From the IMG/VR virus record IMGVR_UViG_3300022074_000024, positions 1 to 64,000 of that record: 64,000 nucleotides of DNA; one strand, written 5' to 3'. Within the stretch, counting starts at the first letter, position 1. Each line of letters opens with the position of its first letter. Shown piece after piece: positions 4,212-20,858 of the stretch. Source of the stretch: a virus. A program made the position numbers and the translations under genes. The notes below the pieces were generated by a model. That model searched no databases. It was given only the letters and a program-made list of their open reading frames with translations, and was not told where the DNA came from.

Positions 4212-4482
4212 TATTCTTTATAATTTCTTTCTGTTCTTTTAAATATTCTTCTCTACCATCTTTAGTAAATACCTTCTTCTCATAATCAAAGTAAGGATGG
4301 GGTTGGGCATTTTCAAAAGGATTCTTCGATGTATTTTTCAATACAATAAATTTATCCTTTGCAAAAGTTCCTGCAACTTGTACTTCAATATCATCACCGT
4401 CTTTCCAGTTTATTTCACCTTTTAAATTAGTGTGAAGCATTGCTTCTTGTATCTTGTCAATTAGTTCTTGAGTAAGTTTCAT
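4198..4482 (-). CDS. Small soluble protein, unknown
   Basis: 94 residues, rich in Lys/Glu/Asp, with an N-terminal helix LTQELIDKIQEAML, a middle beta-like stretch around WKDGDDIEVQVAG, and a charged helical C-terminus. No recognised family and no membrane segment. The start is joined by ATGA to the preceding 57-residue gene, and the 3' end contains the -35 box of the speD promoter. The spacing argues for a real gene at the end of the gp45 operon. Confidence 0.7.
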   Translation of the reverse strand: MKLTQELIDKIQEAMLHTNLKGEINWKDGDDIEVQVAGTFAKDKFIVLKNTSKNPFENAQPHPYFDYEKKVFTKDGREEYLKEQKEIIKNIDKK

Positions 4483-4652
4483 TCTACTATGTCAAAGTGC
4501 CATTTTATGTGTTTAATATAATCAAACGTACATGATAAATCTGCATCACAACTTATATCATACTTTCGATCACAAAGAAAATTTCTTAGTTCTTTCACTG
4601 ATGCAAAAGAACCTTGTTTTTCAAAATTTTCATTGTAAAGAATGTACTTCAT
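4479..4652 (-). CDS. Small protein (57 aa), unknown
   Basis: Begins MKYILYNENFEKQGSFASVK and reads like a short alpha/beta domain with two Cys in the middle (FLCDRKYDISCDADLSC). The start at 4652 is chosen because its ATG overlaps the stop of the 28-codon membrane micropeptide as ATGA; a TTG at 4706 would extend it by 18 residues but would run through that small gene. It ends in an ATGA junction with the next gene. No family recognised. Confidence 0.65.
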   Translation of the reverse strand: MKYILYNENFEKQGSFASVKELRNFLCDRKYDISCDADLSCTFDYIKHIKWHFDIVE

Positions 4653-4735
4653 TTCTTCTTGAATACACCTAACTTTGTTAAAAGATAAAGTACTAGTATT
4701 GTCCAAAATACAACTTCTAATCCGACGTTATTCAT
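4649..4735 (-). CDS. 28-residue single-transmembrane micropeptide
   Basis: A very short reading frame, sequence MNNVGLEVVFWTILVLYLLT followed by KLGVFKKK. It is one hydrophobic helix (about 5-20) with a basic end, the layout of a bitopic membrane peptide with its C-terminus in the cytoplasm. Its ATG overlaps the gp45 stop as TAATG and its TGA overlaps the next start as ATGA, so both junctions have the coupled form used throughout this genome and no base is left over. Function unknown. Expression is inferred from junction geometry only. Confidence 0.6.
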   Translation of the reverse strand: MNNVGLEVVFWTILVLYLLTKLGVFKKK

Positions 4736-5400
4736 TAACCAAATGTTGAATCAGGTTCTAATGCTATGTAGTATTTTAGATCGTAACGGGTATTAGAAAA
4801 CTTAGAAAGTAATTTACTTGATACTACAACATCATATGCACCAGGTATAATTTTAATATTCTCTACTTTAAAGTTAAATACGAAATCTTTATCAGTTTCA
4901 CCAACTACAACTGCATATTCATTTGATGTATCATTTCTCTTATCACGAACAACAAGTTTCACAACACCTGCTTCACCAACTGCTGATAGATCAGGTAATT
5001 GATATACTGCAGCTGCTTTAAGTAATTTATCTAATGATGTACTTTCTAGTTGGAAACAAACATCTTCTGTAGGAAGATTGATTTCTTTCTCAGGAGGAGC
5101 AGTAATTACTTGTGGATCTGCATAAAAATATTTAACTCTTCTTGTCCCTTCTTTAATTGCAATGTATGACTCAGGACTAAAATCTAAATCAGGATCTGAA
5201 TGTAATCCAAGTCCATTTAGAAACTGATTAAGATCATAGATTGCTACATCACGAGGAAACTCTTCTGGAATATCTGCTTCTGCAAGAATATTTTTAGCAA
5301 CAGATATTGTTCTTAATTTATTACCTTCTTTGACAAGGATTGAGTTGTTGATACCTGCAAAATTCTTGAGTACATTCAAAGTGTTGTCAGATAATTTCAT
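4735..5400 (-). CDS. gp45: Sliding clamp gp45 (DNA polymerase processivity factor)
   Basis: Forms the trimeric ring that holds the phage polymerase on DNA and, in T4, also activates late transcription with gp55 and gp33. 221 residues against 228 in T4; contains MKLSDNTLNVLKNFAGIN at the N-terminus and an LPDLSAVGE segment in the middle typical of cyanophage gp45. The ATG at 5400 is preferred over 5421 because AAAGAAAG precedes it at normal distance. It is followed by the micropeptide through TAATG. With gp44 and gp55 in the same window, the coupling of replication to late transcription is probably conserved. Confidence 0.93.
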   Translation of the reverse strand: MKLSDNTLNVLKNFAGINNSILVKEGNKLRTISVAKNILAEADIPEEFPRDVAIYDLNQFLNGLGLHSDPDLDFSPESYIAIKEGTRRVKYFYADPQVITAPPEKEINLPTEDVCFQLESTSLDKLLKAAAVYQLPDLSAVGEAGVVKLVVRDKRNDTSNEYAVVVGETDKDFVFNFKVENIKIIPGAYDVVVSSKLLSKFSNTRYDLKYYIALEPDSTFG

Positions 5401-13235: not shown

Positions 13236-13711
13236 CTATTACTTGACTTATATTGAATATTATCTTTTATTGTATTGTAATCAGAACTACTACCTGACAT
13301 TGCATTGTCATCTACATTCATGACTTCATCAAATCCACTTCTTTCTATGATCTTTGTTTTGATATCTAACTGTTTTTTCTCTTTTTGTATTCTTCTTAAA
13401 AATGCATAGTGAATAATCTGAGTAAAGTATGCAAATGGATTTCTAGACTTCTCAGGATCAAAGTTATGAATATACTGAACACAGTTTTCAATACCATCAG
13501 ATATCATATCATCACGAAACATATAATTAACAAAGTTTGGTTTGTATGATAAGTGTGTTGCAATCTTTAAAAAACATTCTCCGAGGTAGTTTGTAATTCT
13601 TGGTTTTGGTAAATCATTCTCTTTCGCATTAGCAACCTTCTCTCGATACACTATCAATGCCTCTAAGAGTTGTTTGTTATTAACATAATGTTCAGACTTC
13701 TTTCTAGGCAT
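13232..13711 (-). CDS. gp55: Late-transcription sigma factor gp55
   Basis: Directs host RNA polymerase to TATAAATA late promoters, working with the gp45 clamp in T4. 159 residues against 185 in T4. The region FRDDMISDGIENCVQYIHNF followed by NPFAYFTQIIHYAFLRRI matches the sigma region 2 pattern of gp55 proteins, with lysine-rich flanks. A sigma70-type promoter lies immediately upstream (13738-13765), fitting early or middle expression of a late regulator. The end is joined to gp47 by ATGA. Confidence 0.92.
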   Translation of the reverse strand: MPRKKSEHYVNNKQLLEALIVYREKVANAKENDLPKPRITNYLGECFLKIATHLSYKPNFVNYMFRDDMISDGIENCVQYIHNFDPEKSRNPFAYFTQIIHYAFLRRIQKEKKQLDIKTKIIERSGFDEVMNVDDNAMSGSSSDYNTIKDNIQYKSSNR

Positions 13712-13737
13712 TAAATGTCTCCGTCTATCTGTATTCT

Positions 13738-13765
13738 ATTATAACATACTTTCAGTACTTGACAA
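13738..13765 (-). promoter_or_regulatory. Sigma70-type promoter for gp55
   Basis: On the minus strand: TTGTCA (13760-13765), 16-base spacer, TATAAT (13738-13743), about 27 bases before the gp55 ATG. It should drive gp55, gp47, the DUF3110 gene and gp46. Its -35 box shares a palindromic ACTTGACAAGT with a plus-strand promoter-like sequence. Confidence 0.75.
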
Positions 13766-13787
13766 GTCATGTAAAAGTGTGTACAAT
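13759..13787 (+). promoter_or_regulatory. Possible divergent sigma70-type promoter
   Basis: On the plus strand: perfect TTGACA (13759-13764), 17-base spacer, TACAAT (13782-13787). A transcript from here would run antisense to the LSm-like gene and uvsW. No plus-strand gene follows, so this may be chance or an antisense RNA promoter. Confidence 0.4.
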
Positions 13788-13814
13788 AACTCTGTAAGGG
13801 TTCAAGGGATAAAA

Positions 13815-14240
13815 CTAGCCTTCTTTATTATTCTTAAAGGGCTTCTTCCAAACTTCTTCAAGACTCTTACGAGCGTCTTCAACACTAGAGATATATCCCA
13901 TTTTTCCATCAGGTTTGACTTCACCACCAGAAGGTAAGAGTTTAGTTATATCATCTTCTTCATTTGATTCTTCAACGTATCTTTCATATAATTTAATTAT
14001 TTTTTGATCTTTAACTTCACTCATTGTAATAATTTTATCAGTACGGAAAACAAACATATCATCATCTGCTAACTCCATCCAAGGTTTAATCTTGACATAC
14101 ATTCCATTACTAATCATTTTCATGACAACAGGAGTGTGAGCAACAATAATTGGTTCTTCACCAGTTTCGTCAACGCAAACCGATGCAAGAATTTCTTCTC
14201 CAGAAATCAATTTAATTACAGCTACGAATTCTTCTCCCAT
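13815..14240 (-). CDS. LSm/Sm-like protein (141 aa)
   Basis: The first 80 residues are beta-rich: VAVIKLISGEEILASV, then PIIVAHTPVVMKM and KIKPWMELADDDMFVF. They share layout and the SGEEILA core with the 94-residue protein at 1187-1471. A charged C-terminal tail (about 95-141) is additional. An Sm-like fold is inferred; RNA binding is not demonstrated. It is coupled to uvsW by a TGATG junction. About 100 bases without a gene separate it from gp55 and hold the two promoter-like sequences. Confidence 0.75.
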   Translation of the reverse strand: MGEEFVAVIKLISGEEILASVCVDETGEEPIIVAHTPVVMKMISNGMYVKIKPWMELADDDMFVFRTDKIITMSEVKDQKIIKLYERYVEESNEEDDITKLLPSGGEVKPDGKMGYISSVEDARKSLEEVWKKPFKNNKEG

Positions 14241-15703
14241 CAGTTTTTTAAAGGTATGTTTACAATATCATAATTAAAATTTTCTTGATTGTAGATTTTA
14301 ATTCTCTCAATCAAATGATTAAGTGTGTAGTTCTTTCTCTTATTATAACTTATATCGTCAGCAATGTCATATAATGTTGCTTTCAGTTTACGATCACCCT
14401 TTCTTAAGACTCTTCCAATAGACTGAAGATTCCGAATTCTCGATTTAGAAGGACTAGCAAATATAACGTTGTGTAAGTTTTTAATATTAATTCCTGTGGA
14501 GAAAGTTCCATATGATGCAACTATTATAGCATTGTTTTCACGTTCGGTGATTGCCCGAATATTCTCTCTATCCTCAGTTTCAACACCACCATGAACAAAG
14601 AAGACTTGACGATTACCAGTCTTACTTTTATTTATCAGATCAAATAATGGTTGACCATGTGCCTCAACACGACTGTATAATATCAGGGTATTACCACTTA
14701 AGTCTAAGGCAAGATTTTTAATAAATTTATTTCTTCGATCATGACCGATTATATATTGTATTTCGTCTTCAAATGTTTCAAATTTATTCGGTGAGTGTTT
14801 CAATAGCAACACATTGATGTCCAAAGTTGCAACATGTCCCTTCTTCATTAACTCTTCGGTTTTAATAATCTTGTAAGAAGGACCAAATAAACCCTCTAAA
14901 ACCCACTTATGTGTCTGTGTTCCGTCAAGAGTTCCTGTGAAACCGTAACGATATTTGGCATCAGCAAGTTTTGTCATTATAGATACTAGTGATTTTGATT
15001 TAAACTGGTGAGCTTCATCCCCAATTACCACAGAAAATCTTTCAAAATACTTTCGGGGGAGCTTATAGATTGATTGCCAAGTTGTAATAATGACCTGAGA
15101 GTCTGTCTCTCTTTCTTTTCCAGCGTATATCTTGTGGCAAAATGAACCTACGTCCCAACCATAGTCTGCAAAATCTTTATACATCTGTTCTACTAACGAG
15201 GTCGTCGGAACGACTATCAGAGTATTTTTCCCTTTCTCAACAAAATATCGAACAATCGAGTATATCATCAACGATTTACCCGAAGCAGTTGGGGATATCA
15301 ACAACTTTCTATTATGTCTTAGAGCGTCGTATACTCCCTCTACTTGATAAGAACGTGGTTTGAACTTGCAAATAGAATTCATATAATCTTTTACACCCTC
15401 CATTGATATGAAGTCGTTTACTTCAAATGGAAGTCCATAGAACTCGCTGTCTGTAAATGAATAATTATAACCGTGATCTCTACAAAATTGGATTACTCGA
15501 TCTAATAATCCTACATATATTTCTCCTTTCTGAGTATTAAATAACCTTATCTTTCCATCCCAATACTTTTTTTGGTATGATGGCATATACTTTACACCAG
15601 GTACTTCAAACGTAAAACTGTCTGATAGTTCATAGTATACATGTGGTTCTGCCTCAATCTTTAGGAAGACCTCATTTTTCTTTGAAATAACCAAATGAGA
15701 CAT
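14240..15703 (-). CDS. uvsW: UvsW helicase (SF2)
   Basis: Unwinds branched DNA and R-loops and switches replication from origin-dependent to recombination-dependent mode in T4. 487 residues, close to T4 UvsW. N-terminal substrate-binding domain (about 1-105, with YMPSYQKKYWDGKIRLF), Q-like FKPRSYQ, Walker A SPTASGKS at 137-144, DEAH at 229-232, and motif III GFTGTLDG. Motif VI is QSIGRVLRKG. A late box at 15724-15731 lies just upstream, which fits the late expression known for T4 uvsW. Confidence 0.95.
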   Translation of the reverse strand: MSHLVISKKNEVFLKIEAEPHVYYELSDSFTFEVPGVKYMPSYQKKYWDGKIRLFNTQKGEIYVGLLDRVIQFCRDHGYNYSFTDSEFYGLPFEVNDFISMEGVKDYMNSICKFKPRSYQVEGVYDALRHNRKLLISPTASGKSLMIYSIVRYFVEKGKNTLIVVPTTSLVEQMYKDFADYGWDVGSFCHKIYAGKERETDSQVIITTWQSIYKLPRKYFERFSVVIGDEAHQFKSKSLVSIMTKLADAKYRYGFTGTLDGTQTHKWVLEGLFGPSYKIIKTEELMKKGHVATLDINVLLLKHSPNKFETFEDEIQYIIGHDRRNKFIKNLALDLSGNTLILYSRVEAHGQPLFDLINKSKTGNRQVFFVHGGVETEDRENIRAITERENNAIIVASYGTFSTGINIKNLHNVIFASPSKSRIRNLQSIGRVLRKGDRKLKATLYDIADDISYNKRKNYTLNHLIERIKIYNQENFNYDIVNIPLKN

Positions 15704-16600: not shown

Positions 16601-17145
16601 AGACGAGTTCTGGCATCAGTATCAAATATATTATATACAGTATAACGCATAGTTGCCTCTGCTGTAAAGTAGTTTATGTCTGTTTCTGTAGCATCAAATT
16701 CCAAAGAGGTTAATGCAACTGGAAATAGATCGTTGAATTTTACAATTGCAACATCTTGAAAATTACTGTTTAGTATATGCAAACTACCATCACTAAACAC
16801 TTCTAATGGATCTCTTAATCCATCTTTATCTGTAGTTTGATCGGCAAATTGTTGAGGTGTTTCTGGGAAACCAATACCTTTTAACCAATTATGCATTGCC
16901 ATATAGTTTTGCATATTTTCATCAACAAGAAATCTTATAGTTAAATCACCATAAGTTAACTTTTCACCAGGTACATCAATATCTTTTAGATAAGATGGTT
17001 GAATAGCAGTCCCAAGTGATAACTCTGGTATTCTAGCAGAATTTGAAAAAAATGCAACCTTTGGATATTTTGCCAAGGTAAACTTGAATCCAACAGGTGC
17101 GAGAAAATTTCGGTTTTGTATCTGGTTAACAAAGGGGTCAGCCAT
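16597..17145 (-). CDS. Tail-tube-like virion protein
   Basis: 182 residues. The order of elements resembles the gp19 tail tube protein at 25256: an N-terminal strand pair (APVGFKFTLAKYPKVAFFS), ARIPELSLG, a loop, LTYGDLTIRFLVDENMQNY, then a helix AMHNWLKGIGFP. In T4, gp19, gp48 and gp54 share this tail-tube fold, so this may be a baseplate tube cap or initiator. The exact T4 counterpart is uncertain. It is coupled by TAATG to the Gly-rich gene and by ATGA to uvsY. Confidence 0.65.
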   Translation of the reverse strand: MADPFVNQIQNRNFLAPVGFKFTLAKYPKVAFFSNSARIPELSLGTAIQPSYLKDIDVPGEKLTYGDLTIRFLVDENMQNYMAMHNWLKGIGFPETPQQFADQTTDKDGLRDPLEVFSDGSLHILNSNFQDVAIVKFNDLFPVALTSLEFDATETDINYFTAEATMRYTVYNIFDTDARTRL

Positions 17146-17699
17146 TACTCACCTCCACCTCCATTACCACCGCCACCGTTGCCACCGCCGTTGCCTCCAT
17201 TTCCACCATTTCCATTTCCGTTGCCATTTCCGTTTCCATTTCCATTTTTATTATCATCACCACTATCTGAACGATTATCAGGTGCTAAACGTCCACCATA
17301 TCCCATCCTATATCCAGTTGGGATTTTTTTGCATTTCTTATCTGTAAAGCAATAATATTGTCCTGCAGGACATTTTTTTGCTTCGGTAGATTCTTTAAAC
17401 TCTTTATAAGTTTTTTTTGTTAAAGTACTTCTGTTCATGTAATTTACAAACTCTTTTGATGCATCAACCATGTTATCTATATCTTCAAGAGATAATTTCT
17501 TAACAGGAAATATATTAGACCACCTATAACTTAAATCCATAGGTGACTGATAAGCATTAGTCACCATGTAGCTCCATAGAGTTTTATCTAATCCTGCTAC
17601 TGGTGATGATGCAGAACCACTGAAACCAGTATTACCTGTTGTAGATGGATCTGTATTCATTGTGGGAGCTTCTTTTAGAAACTGACCAAACTTCTTCAC
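17145..17699 (-). CDS. Gly-rich virion-type protein carrying a copy of the capsid N-terminal module
   Basis: 184 residues from a GTG start that overlaps the preceding stop (GTGA). Residues about 5-40 (FLKEAPTMNTDPS, GFSGSASSPVAGLD) nearly repeat residues 51-86 of the major capsid protein, and the two DNA stretches are also similar. LKE followed by Ala fits the T4 prohead protease rule (Leu-x-Glu), so removal of a short N-terminal peptide by gp21 is likely. A Cys-rich middle (KKCPAGQYYCFTDKKCKKIP, about 108-127) may bind metal or form disulfides. The last 35 residues are Asn/Gly repeats. Function unknown; location inside the head or on the capsid is inferred. Confidence 0.75.
   Translation of the reverse strand: MKKFGQFLKEAPTMNTDPSTTGNTGFSGSASSPVAGLDKTLWSYMVTNAYQSPMDLSYRWSNIFPVKKLSLEDIDNMVDASKEFVNYMNRSTLTKKTYKEFKESTEAKKCPAGQYYCFTDKKCKKIPTGYRMGYGGRLAPDNRSDSGDDNKNGNGNGNGNGNGNGGNGGNGGGNGGGGNGGGGE
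17148..17252 (-). repeat. Gly/Asn codon repeat tract
   Basis: Encodes the C-terminal (NG)n, (GGN)n and GGGG tail of the Gly-rich protein. It is unusually GC-rich for this genome and made of short triplet and hexamer repeats, so its length is probably variable between relatives. Confidence 0.85.
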
Positions 17700-17854
17700 T
17701 CTTCTATAATTAGATTAAACCAATCTTCACTCATACCTTTGATTATATCATCGGCTGATTCTTGATCTGGTGCATAACCCTCACGGATTAAATGTTCGGA
17801 AACTTTTTTATAATTTTGATGAGCTTCCTGTGTCTGTTTTGGACTTGGTTTCAT
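17696..17854 (-). CDS. Small protein (52 aa) with 'GMSEDW' motif
   Basis: Reads MKPSPKQTQEAHQNYKKVSE, then HLIREGYAPDQESADDIIKG and MSEDWFNLIIEE. The pattern EHLIxEGYAxDxxSAxxIIxxMSEdW is one I know from small cyanophage proteins and from tails of cyanophage virion proteins; no function is established. The stop overlaps the next start as GTGA. It is the first gene after the terminator at 17884-17909, with a CTAAATA late-like box upstream. Confidence 0.7.
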   Translation of the reverse strand: MKPSPKQTQEAHQNYKKVSEHLIREGYAPDQESADDIIKGMSEDWFNLIIEE

Positions 17855-17874: not shown

Positions 17875-17881
17875 TATTTAG
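17875..17881 (-). promoter_or_regulatory. Late-promoter-like box CTAAATA
   Basis: A CTAAATA sequence on the minus strand, a form known for cyanophage late promoters, lies between the terminator and the 52-residue gene. It could drive the run from 17854 to uvsY. Confidence 0.4.
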
Positions 17882-17883
17882 AC

Positions 17884-17909
17884 AAAAAAAGAGGAGTTGA
17901 ACTCCTCTT
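17884..17909 (-). terminator. Rho-independent terminator after the 465-residue gene
   Basis: On the minus strand an AAGAGGAG / CTCCTCTT stem with a five-base loop is followed by seven T. It begins 17 bases after the stop of the 465-residue gene. Confidence 0.9.
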
Positions 17910-17925
17910 AATTAATTTACTTTGA

Positions 17926-19323
17926 CTATTGGTAAATTTTACCTTTAAGTGCTGCTTTAATTTTTTTACCAGAGAGAAGATCTAATCTTGAATGTTCATC
18001 GATTGCAGCATAAGATGGTGCTATGTTGTCTGATGCCCAATCAAATGCATCGATGGCACTGAAACGTTTAGTAAAATTAAATGTAGATGAGTAAAGATAT
18101 AGAGTACGTAGATAGTTTAAAGATTGATACTTTGCATCAGTTCTATCCTTACCACCTAATATATCTTTTCCACCGTGACCGTAAATACGTTGATCTTGAG
18201 CATCTCTAATATCATCATCATCTACAGAAAACAGTTCCCACAAAATATAATCATCCATTGTAAACTGTAATTGTGTCCAACTACTCTTAGTTGAAGTAAC
18301 GTACTGTACAAAGGATTTGATACTTGTATCAATTTTAGAAGAACCCTTTGGTGGTTTTGTAGTAAAAAATCTTGTATTCCAATAATCCTGTAAAGGAGTA
18401 TCAGCAATTATGTTGATTTTTTCTTCTACTGTTGTAAGAAATTTTTCAGTATCTTCAGAACTAACTTGACCAGAAAACTCTAATGAAGTTAAATCTAAAC
18501 AAAATGCCTTGAATATTGCTTGTCTACTTTTACCCCATTTAACTATGGAAGCAGTTTCCTCTCTAACTTCCTGTAAAATAGGTAATAGTGGAGAAATAAT
18601 TTTGTTTAAGGATGATACAGGTTTAGGAATGGTTTGACCTACAACTAAATTTAAAGGACTATCCATGTCATTAGTCGTCCACTGAACTAAATCAGTCTCT
18701 CCAGTTTCATAATTCATTAAGTTATTACCTACTAAAACTGAACCGTAGTTATCATCTTTAGATTTTGCACTCATAGTGTTGTCTAATACTTCATAGAATT
18801 TATCTATTTCAGCATAACTAGAAACTGCAATTACATCAAAATCCAATGTGTCGTTTATTTTTGCAAGAAAATCTTCCTTAACATAACTTTTAGGAAGATC
18901 TACCATATCATTAGCAATTTGTGTTTGTGCGACTAATCCAGTGTTTCCATCTACTTGATAGATATGATTAGTTAATATCATATTACCAAAAGGATCTTGT
19001 ATATCTTTTAGAGGAACTACCAATACATTGGTAAAATTTGCAATAATTAAATCAAATCCCCAACAACGACCTGTATCTGGATTAATTTTGAAATAGAAAG
19101 GTTTGATTACGTCAGTTACTGCTCTTTTTGCAGAAGGTCTTTGACAAAAAGCAGCATCAATAGCTTTAGCCCAATTATTTGCCTTGCTCTTAGTTAATGC
19201 TTCTCCAAATATCTTTAATGATATTCTGAATGATTTTTCACCTTGTGATACACGTTCTAGAAGATCTTGCTTCCATATTGGTGTAGTATCAATATTGAAA
19301 AGTGAATTAAAAGTATTTTTCAT
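17926..19323 (-). CDS. Unrecognised 465-residue protein in its own transcription unit
   Basis: I do not recognise this protein. It begins MKNTFNSLFNIDTTPIWKQD and has no signal peptide or membrane segment. It has mixed alpha/beta composition, with a Cys/Trp pair in DTGRCWGFDLIIANFTNVLV and a long acidic middle. The C-terminal part has LYLYSSTFNFTKRFSAIDAF. It sits directly after gp23, but a terminator separates them, a TTGACA/TACAAT promoter precedes it and a second terminator follows. It is therefore transcribed alone and may be made early, unlike the structural genes around it. It is not related by eye to gp23/gp24 or gp3. Confidence 0.8.
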   Translation of the reverse strand: MKNTFNSLFNIDTTPIWKQDLLERVSQGEKSFRISLKIFGEALTKSKANNWAKAIDAAFCQRPSAKRAVTDVIKPFYFKINPDTGRCWGFDLIIANFTNVLVVPLKDIQDPFGNMILTNHIYQVDGNTGLVAQTQIANDMVDLPKSYVKEDFLAKINDTLDFDVIAVSSYAEIDKFYEVLDNTMSAKSKDDNYGSVLVGNNLMNYETGETDLVQWTTNDMDSPLNLVVGQTIPKPVSSLNKIISPLLPILQEVREETASIVKWGKSRQAIFKAFCLDLTSLEFSGQVSSEDTEKFLTTVEEKINIIADTPLQDYWNTRFFTTKPPKGSSKIDTSIKSFVQYVTSTKSSWTQLQFTMDDYILWELFSVDDDDIRDAQDQRIYGHGGKDILGGKDRTDAKYQSLNYLRTLYLYSSTFNFTKRFSAIDAFDWASDNIAPSYAAIDEHSRLDLLSGKKIKAALKGKIYQ

Positions 19324-19355
19324 GATAAAATCCGTATAATGTTTTGGATAAGATT

Positions 19356-19384
19356 ATTGTAGCAGATAGTTATAAATGTGTCAA
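19356..19384 (-). promoter_or_regulatory. Strong sigma70-type promoter for the 465-residue gene
   Basis: On the minus strand: consensus TTGACA (19379-19384), 17-base spacer, TACAAT (19356-19361), about 30 bases before the ATG at 19323. It stands between a terminator and the gene. Confidence 0.82.
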
Positions 19385-19400
19385 GCTTTTAATTAAAACA

Positions 19401-19427
19401 AAAAAAAAGACTCCCGAAGGAGTCTTT
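19401..19427 (-). terminator. Rho-independent terminator after gp23, UUCG loop
   Basis: On the minus strand AAAGACTCC, TTCG loop, GGAGTCTTT, then T-tract. The UUCG tetraloop is exceptionally stable. It closes the head operon 22 bases after the gp23 stop. Confidence 0.93.
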
Positions 19428-19448: not shown

Positions 19449-20858
19449 TTACATTAAGTTTGCAACTTTTACTCTTCTGTAGTATACGTTGCTGTTACGT
19501 GTAAGTACACCAGGAGTGGTGAGTGTTGCACCTTTAGCAAATGGGTTTGCAACTATTCCGTAACGAGTCTTGAATCCAATCTTTGGTTGGAAACTGTCTG
19601 CTCCGACACTTCTTACCATCTGTAATGGAACATATGGGCAGTAGAATATACCTGCGTCATAAGGTGAAGTACCTTTATAACCTGCAACGTAGTACTGTGA
19701 AGCAGCAACGTTTGCAGCATATGGGTCAATGTAGACTCTGAACTTACCTGCAAGAACACCAGCAAATGTATTACCTGTGTCATCTACATTTAAGTTTGCA
19801 TTAAGTGCAGGAGTGTAATCAAGTACACCAGCCATTGTTAATGCTGAAGCAACGTCTGCGGAACATAGGATCATGTTACCCTTTCCACGACGAGTTCTTT
19901 GTGCGATTGCGTTCGCATCTCTTTCGATTTGGAAGATCAAACCTTTGAACTTCTCAACAGACCATCTTCCGTTAGAGTCAACGTCTAAGTCGAAAGTACC
20001 ACTTGTTGCTGTATTAACAGCAGCACCTGGTTCTGCTACGTTATAGATTGTTCTAATAACTTCTCTGTTGATTTCAGCAAGAATCTCAGTTGATAGAATG
20101 TTTGCTAACTCTGCCTCTGCATTCAATCCGTGGATTGCTTTAAGGTCTTGAGCTAGTTCTAAACTGTACTCTGCTTTTAGTGCTCTGGACTTCGCAGTCA
20201 CAGTGACTTTCTCGATTGAGAATGCCATCTGATGGAATGCTGCAGCACCTGTGCCATCAAGTTTTTCTGACTCAGATGTGGACATACCCTGACCTACAGT
20301 GTAGATATCAGATTGTGCACTTGTGTCAGTTGCTGATGGATCAAGTAGACCTGGATTTGAACCTGCCTGTGCAGTTGTACCCAAACCAACTTGTGCATTT
20401 GTCATGCCAGCTGTGTTTGTTCTGCCTTCGTTCTGACCAGAGAATGCAGAATCTACCTCGTTGTAGAATGTCTCATCTCCAGATGGACCTTCAAGACGAG
20501 ATCTCATTGCGAATATAAGTCCTGTTGGACCATTCATTGGTTGTACGCCTGCAAGGTCGTATGCCACTAAGTTAGGCATTGCACGACGAATTAGGCTAAT
20601 AAGTACAGGATCGAAACCTGCTACGGGTGAAGCACCTGAACCACTAAAACCAGGATTACCTGTTCCAGATGGGTCTGTGTTCATTGTGGGTTGTTCTGTT
20701 AAGAATTCCCTTTCTTCCCTTAATGCTTTTTCTTGGTTTTCCAAGAGAACTGCTGTAACCATCTTACGATGAGGATCAGTAATTTTATCCTGTCCCTCTG
20801 CGTTTAGTAGTGGTCCCCATTTCTCTTGTAAAGCCTCAGTGTTTATAGGGGCTTGCAT
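19449..20858 (-). CDS. gp23: Major capsid protein gp23
   Basis: Builds the head lattice. 469 residues (T4: 521). The central GLIFAMRSRLEG, the ANILSTEILAEINREVIRTI helix and the end VLTRNSNVYYRRVKVANLM are typical of cyanophage gp23. Residues about 1-55 are the scaffold-interacting delta region; FLTE at 52-55 fits the gp21 cleavage rule, so the mature protein may start at Gln56. Residues 51-86 are nearly repeated in the Gly-rich protein at 17145-17699. An AAGG ribosome site lies upstream and a strong terminator follows. Confidence 0.96.
   Translation of the reverse strand: MQAPINTEALQEKWGPLLNAEGQDKITDPHRKMVTAVLLENQEKALREEREFLTEQPTMNTDPSGTGNPGFSGSGASPVAGFDPVLISLIRRAMPNLVAYDLAGVQPMNGPTGLIFAMRSRLEGPSGDETFYNEVDSAFSGQNEGRTNTAGMTNAQVGLGTTAQAGSNPGLLDPSATDTSAQSDIYTVGQGMSTSESEKLDGTGAAAFHQMAFSIEKVTVTAKSRALKAEYSLELAQDLKAIHGLNAEAELANILSTEILAEINREVIRTIYNVAEPGAAVNTATSGTFDLDVDSNGRWSVEKFKGLIFQIERDANAIAQRTRRGKGNMILCSADVASALTMAGVLDYTPALNANLNVDDTGNTFAGVLAGKFRVYIDPYAANVAASQYYVAGYKGTSPYDAGIFYCPYVPLQMVRSVGADSFQPKIGFKTRYGIVANPFAKGATLTTPGVLTRNSNVYYRRVKVANLM

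Follow-up and report, generated by a model that had tools for sequence, protein, structure and literature searches.

We find that a single gene with its own predicted promoter and terminator, ORF465, lies in a stretch of ~1.5 kb inserted at the transcription terminator of gp23, the major capsid protein gene of a T4-like cyanophage: comparison with sister phages shows the same point to be empty or otherwise occupied, with the capsid terminator intact as well as the late box that belongs to the following operon. As close relatives carry either an empty site or other genes there, the spot resembles a docking port for swappable, probably early accessory genes. We explain the unit as a moron-type, PeSL-like (promoter early stem-loop) cassette that docked at the gp23 terminator and may act as a host-directed accessory gene. 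Taken as a whole this explanation seems to us likely; for the functional step alone, an accessory role of ORF465 against the host, we put the chances close to even.

Cassettes of the PeSL and moron type are already known. Two features of this one are less expected: its address, right behind gp23 inside the late head cluster, and the fact that phages whose flanks are nearly identical have exchanged the occupant. The arrangement shows a route by which a lytic marine phage could gain or lose early accessory genes while capsid transcription stays undisturbed, and it makes the gp23-gp3 junction a fixed address for harvesting accessory genes from metagenomes. Because several sibling cassettes encode a ParB-like fold and have relatives beside DNA methyltransferase genes, the site is also a source of candidate counter-defence genes of Synechococcus and Prochlorococcus phages.

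Layout and transcription signals of the unit

The window, i.e. the whole stretch of 64,000 nucleotides analysed here, is part of a 71.8 kb virus record and belongs to a marine T4-like cyanophage, which is presumably lytic. Its gene order is P-SSM2-like (gp20, gp21, gp22, gp23, gp3, uvsY, uvsW, gp55, gp47, gp46), and it carries porphyrin-biosynthesis and ferredoxin oxidoreductase genes typical of cyanophages. One near-identical contig (L001) differs from the window at 28 positions, all of them within a stretch of uvsW (14756-15242), and is otherwise identical; this is either a recombination tract or the product of a mixed assembly. The initial annotation had described an insulated unit around a 465-residue gene, and all elements that it named were found in their places on the minus strand (Table 1). 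Its designation of the site as a gp23-uvsY junction needs correction: behind terminator 2 the order is late-type box, 52-codon ORF, ORF184, gp3 and uvsY, so that two ORFs and gp3 intervene before uvsY is reached.

Table 1. Positions of the ORF465 unit and its neighbours in the window
Feature	Position	Strand	Description
gp23, major capsid protein gene	19449..20858	minus	phrog_138, E=3.2e-166; upstream neighbour of ORF465
Terminator 1 (gp23 terminator)	19406..19427	minus	hairpin AAAGACTCC-UUCG-GGAGUCUUU, then U-run
Inserted stretch (approximate)	17893..19392	minus	left and right flanks join here in empty-site relatives
Predicted extended −10 sigma70-type promoter	19356..19384	minus	TTGACA-17-TACAAT, 11/12, TG before −10
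ORF465, cassette occupant	17926..19323	minus	465 codons from ATG
Terminator 2, closes the unit	17889..17909	minus	hairpin AAGAGGAGU-UCA-ACUCCUCUU and U-run
Late-type box of next operon	17875..17882	minus	TCTAAATA; directly past terminator 2; also in empty sites
Conserved 52-codon ORF	17696..17854	minus	lies behind the site both in empty-site relatives and in occupied ones
ORF184 (184 aa)	17145..17699	minus	conserved right-flank anchor

The frame of ORF465 is free of stops, the remaining two minus-strand frames containing 39 and 60, and its GC content by codon position (42/35/18%) is a coding pattern. With 31.7% overall (gp23: 43.1%) its GC content is ordinary among the genes of the window; the deviant base composition by which morons are recognized was thus not found, and composition gives no mark of foreign origin. 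On both sides the gene is bounded by a predicted hairpin with a U-run, which would give it the own terminator and the upstream insulation of a moron. Terminator 1, correctly described before as a UUCG-loop terminator at the end of gp23, has a folding energy of −12.7 kcal/mol (z −4.1; none of 200 shuffles was as stable), and a terminator at this position is common to all empty-site relatives. The second strong terminator that had been placed downstream of the gene was also recovered (−11.6 kcal/mol, z −3.5 against shuffles). We noticed post hoc that two of the seven copies of TTAATTAA in the 64 kb (17908-17915 and 19389-19396) sit at the inner terminator edges, bracketing the unit. Another side observation concerns the right flank: the first 45 residues of ORF184 are 60% identical to the N-terminus of gp23, including the segment FLKE/APTMNTDP (FLTE/QPTMNTDP in the counterpart), which resembles a prohead-protease site, and ORF184 is possibly a processed internal head protein.

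The promoter that the initial annotation had seen directly after the gp23 terminator is predicted at most 21 nt past this hairpin, the promoter/stem-loop boundary of a PeSL, and 33 nt upstream of the ATG, where a moron would carry its own promoter. On this strand, sites of at least 11/12 are expected by chance at ~0.0035 per 100 nt and, with TG, at ~0.00016. The promoter scan as a whole remained at the level of chance (36 sites found versus 38 expected), so we place weight on the score and the position of the ORF465 site. Minus-strand sites of at least 11/12 number 11 in the window; five of the 11 fall into non-coding DNA, which makes up ~7% of the window, and each of the five has a gene 11-50 nt downstream, gp55 and gp46 included. 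Late boxes of the TATAAATA type, which had been ascribed to the neighbouring virion operons, indeed occur 13-29 nt ahead of several other window genes. Upstream of ORF465 no box of this type was found, and terminator 1 intervenes after gp23. A strong site together with the missing late box assigns the promoter to the class seen at early/middle genes such as gp55 and gp46, not to that of the virion operons. Since the empty-site relatives lack it, the promoter belongs to the inserted stretch. In the proposed mechanism, host sigma70 RNA polymerase would transcribe ORF465 early, apart from the late transcription that depends on gp55; terminator 1 would stop read-through from gp23, and terminator 2 would keep the ORF465 transcript out of the late genes. 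In the gap before gp55 itself (13711-13815), strong promoter-like sites were seen at 13765-13738 on the minus strand and from 13759 on the plus strand, with no plus-strand gene behind the latter.

Empty and occupied sites in related phages

Searches of viral contigs with gp3 and gp23 yielded 137 readable gp23-gp3 junctions. The site is empty in nine relatives (L004, L005, L006, L011, L013, L015, L016, L018 and L023) whose gp23 is 86-97% identical to that of the window: a single terminator after gp23 is followed by GTCTAAATAC, the 52-codon ORF and ORF184. The distance from gp23 to ORF184 is 233-238 nt in these phages versus 1749 nt in the window, and the flanks of those that were compared are 84-92% (left) and 80-91% (right) identical. 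In L013 the left flank matches positions 4440-4700 and the right flank 4683-5016; the overlap of 18 nt consists of the 3′ arm of the terminator and the U-tract. These matches are most simply read as an insertion of ~1.5 kb via recombination at terminator sequence; in the proposed mechanism the unit would have arrived through terminator sequences common to both of its ends. Single empty-site relatives may instead have lost the gene from an ancestor that carried ORF465. The initial annotation had read the unit as moron-like or needed early, and its protein as probably not structural. The first part is supported by this absence at the same position in close relatives, by other phages in which promoter-gene-terminator units of unrelated content stand exactly there, and by a promoter of the class seen at gp55 and gp46; early timing and absence from the virion are probable.

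The site holds unrelated genes in other relatives, including several ParB/sulfiredoxin-like families and an HNH endonuclease, most of them preceded by a strong promoter of the sigma70 type; occupants were named by inspection of their sequences unless a search supports the name. A close case is L199, with gp23 96% and ORF184 90% identical to the window, which carries a phrog_2558 protein with its own promoter and terminator at the same point. Proteins of this family also occupy the site in L014, L073, L169-L173 and others. Further occupants are a phrog_5931 protein (L008), an HNH protein (L022), another protein (L020) and, by inspection, HNH-type genes in L084 and L140. More distant junctions contain halogenase-like, 2OG-oxygenase-like and deformylase genes, that of P-SSM2 carrying a 2OG-oxygenase; with metabolic-type occupants present, the site is not restricted to counter-defence genes. 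Differing genes at one site between near-identical flanks are what module shuffling by PeSLs would leave behind. Of the 31 junctions that reach 850 nt, 9 have a promoter of at least 11/12 (spacers of 15-19 allowed) no further than 150 nt from the stop codon of gp23, versus none of the 106 shorter ones (Fisher p 6e-7, a value that is only indicative because the 850-nt cut-off was set with the data in view and the junctions come from related phages).

In six phages (L008, L022, L050, L071, L079 and L199) the −35 element lies inside the terminator hairpin, the U-run falls within the spacer and the −10 element follows directly, as in AGAGGGTGTTGACACCCTCTTTTTTTTATGCTACTATATAAT of L199. One exact version of this composite, TTGACACCCTCTTTTTTTATG, recurs in viral contigs, at least 120 of them, and TANNNT stands immediately behind 126 of the 127 copies listed. 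The genes behind it form 21 clusters among the matches listed, the largest of them transaldolase-like, and glutaredoxin-like genes are also present. We further observed that TTGACACCCTCTTTTTTTATG precedes many unrelated genes (viral contigs L205 onward). A separate observation is a conserved leader of ~45 nt just upstream of the phrog_2558 gene in L014, L070, L169-L171, L173, L174, L176 and L184. Its predicted stem (ACGTTG...CAACGC) has three pairs changed on both sides, in one sequence each; Rfam gave no match for this leader, the window stretch or the sibling loci.

The occupant and its candidate roles

By sequence, ORF465 is an ORFan, as the earlier statement that it matches no family had implied. 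Searches of phages, viral contigs, bacterial and archaeal genomes, Pfam, PHROGs and NCBIfam returned only the near-identical contig L001 (100% over 274 residues). In detail, tblastn in phages, peptide patterns in viral contigs (the whole protein and two fragments) and in bacterial and archaeal genomes, and searches of Pfam, PHROGs, NCBIfam, PADLOC and PDB gave, besides L001, only sub-threshold matches, which disagree among themselves. In its ORF465 part L001 does not differ from the window and hence provides no selection signal. The AlphaFold model from the single sequence has a pLDDT of 33.5, too low to use. As ORF465 has no family, its function is assigned through guilt by association: we liken its role to that of the ParB/sulfiredoxin-like and nuclease-like occupants of the gp23-terminator site. 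Our best guess is an early, non-virion protein for host takeover or counter-defence. This action on the host would be the weakest step of the proposed mechanism.

The location between gp23 and gp3 could also suit a protein of the virion or of head assembly (in a decoration, internal or scaffold-related role) that is natively placed and merely has an extra promoter, all the more as the adjacent ORF184, with its gp23-like N-terminus, may be an internal head protein. However, ORF465 is missing from the nine close relatives, it has no late box although the neighbouring operon has one, and the terminators that bound it should block read-through; neither a head or tail match in PHROGs nor a gp23-like N-terminal segment was found in it, and we regard such a role as improbable. 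Even less probable is a selfish homing-type element at a conserved gene, with ORF465 as the spreading nuclease: HNH-type genes do occur at the same point in L022, L084 and L140, but Pfam, PHROGs and NCBIfam revealed no nuclease family or motif in ORF465, and the flanking target is a terminator rather than a coding sequence split by the insertion. Hardly better are the chances that the promoter match is accidental and that the gene is expressed late in some other way, e.g. by incomplete termination after gp23. Sites of 9/12 are found at chance level in the AT-rich window DNA, but besides the ORF465 promoter no 11/12 site in the 10 kb scanned has the TG, and relatives that carry other genes again show strong promoters at this place, which short junctions never do.

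On function the siblings say more than ORF465 itself, and we count their features in favour of the cassette explanation. A phrog_2558 model from a 19-sequence alignment (pLDDT 80) finds its best PDB matches among structures of ParB, Noc and sulfiredoxin (best E 7e-4), and invariant QR and DGQH motifs in the alignment are consistent with them. Relatives of phrog_2558 or phrog_2615 adjoin DNA methyltransferase genes in S-RIM2, S-IOM18, S-M1 and Syn19 and lie near one in S-CAM4. Phage ParB/Srx domains have been linked to host conflict, with DdrB-like ParB domains for comparison (PMC5512222). Another proposal concerns the fold: ORF465 might itself have the ParB/sulfiredoxin fold, as a far-diverged protein of the phrog_2615 type and so of the class found in several sibling cassettes, which we consider conceivable but doubtful. 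Scored with a profile of 13 phrog_2615 sequences, it reaches 3.2 bits, spread over two collinear segments, one of residues 47-68 with QR at 60-62 and one of residues 167-195 with Y...LDNT (177-182) on the Y-FD motif; between them, hhalign sets its VDGNT (124-128) on the VDGNTR motif of the family. A score of this height was reached by only 48 of 5000 shuffles, and ORF465 ranks about fifth of 254 non-family proteins, near several other ParB-like proteins. With ~18 sibling families and single cassettes tried, however, the score does not rise above chance level once corrected; unrelated proteins (a Dam-like methylase and gp46) reach it as well, the arginine of the DGxxR motif is a glycine in ORF465 (aligned VDGNTG), the hhalign probability is <1%, and the single-sequence model is of the low confidence given above. 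Alignments by hhalign against ten composite-promoter families or cassettes and seven other siblings stayed at the shuffled level, apart from the weak phrog_2615 signal. We therefore did not file ORF465 in the phrog_2615 class on these shuffles, the number of families tried and the absent arginine, and take the similarity as suggestive only.

A wider conjecture, which we hold to be rather unlikely, is that in marine T4-like cyanophages the gp23 terminator serves as a dedicated port where early-expressed anti-host genes are exchanged, chiefly genes for ParB/sulfiredoxin-fold proteins that diverge strongly from one another, with ORF465 as an extreme, catalytically altered member in which the motif arginine is replaced.

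Relation to PeSLs, sibling cassettes and morons

The composite promoter-terminator arrangement of T4-like phages was reportedly described as PeSL by Arbiol in 2010 (doi 10.1093/gbe/evq006) and Comeau in 2014 (doi 10.1093/gbe/evu129). The window unit shares with it an early-type promoter joined to a stem-loop terminator at the boundary of an exchanged module, and in sister phages (L008, L022 and L199) the −35 element lies within the terminator hairpin as in PeSL composites. It differs in that promoter and terminator are adjacent yet separate in the window, and in that the site is inside the late head cluster. Where PMC4503421 cites earlier work on them, PeSLs are promoter early stem-loop cassettes of T4-like phages tied to the exchange of gene modules. 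For the ORFanage region of S-PM2, shuffling mediated by PeSLs was held unlikely (Puxty et al. 2015, PMC4503421).

The phrog_2558 proteins occupy the same gp23-terminator site as ORF465, and some genes of phrog_2558 and of phrog_2615 stand behind composite promoters of one type; ORF465, in contrast, showed no significant sequence relation to either family. Morons are promoter-gene-terminator insertions of the lambdoid type, and the classical ones are expressed from prophages. Although the window phage is T4-like and presumably lytic, whereas classical morons are prophage-expressed, its unit resembles them in being a single gene that has its own predicted promoter and terminator, sits as an insertion amid conserved late genes and is variably present.
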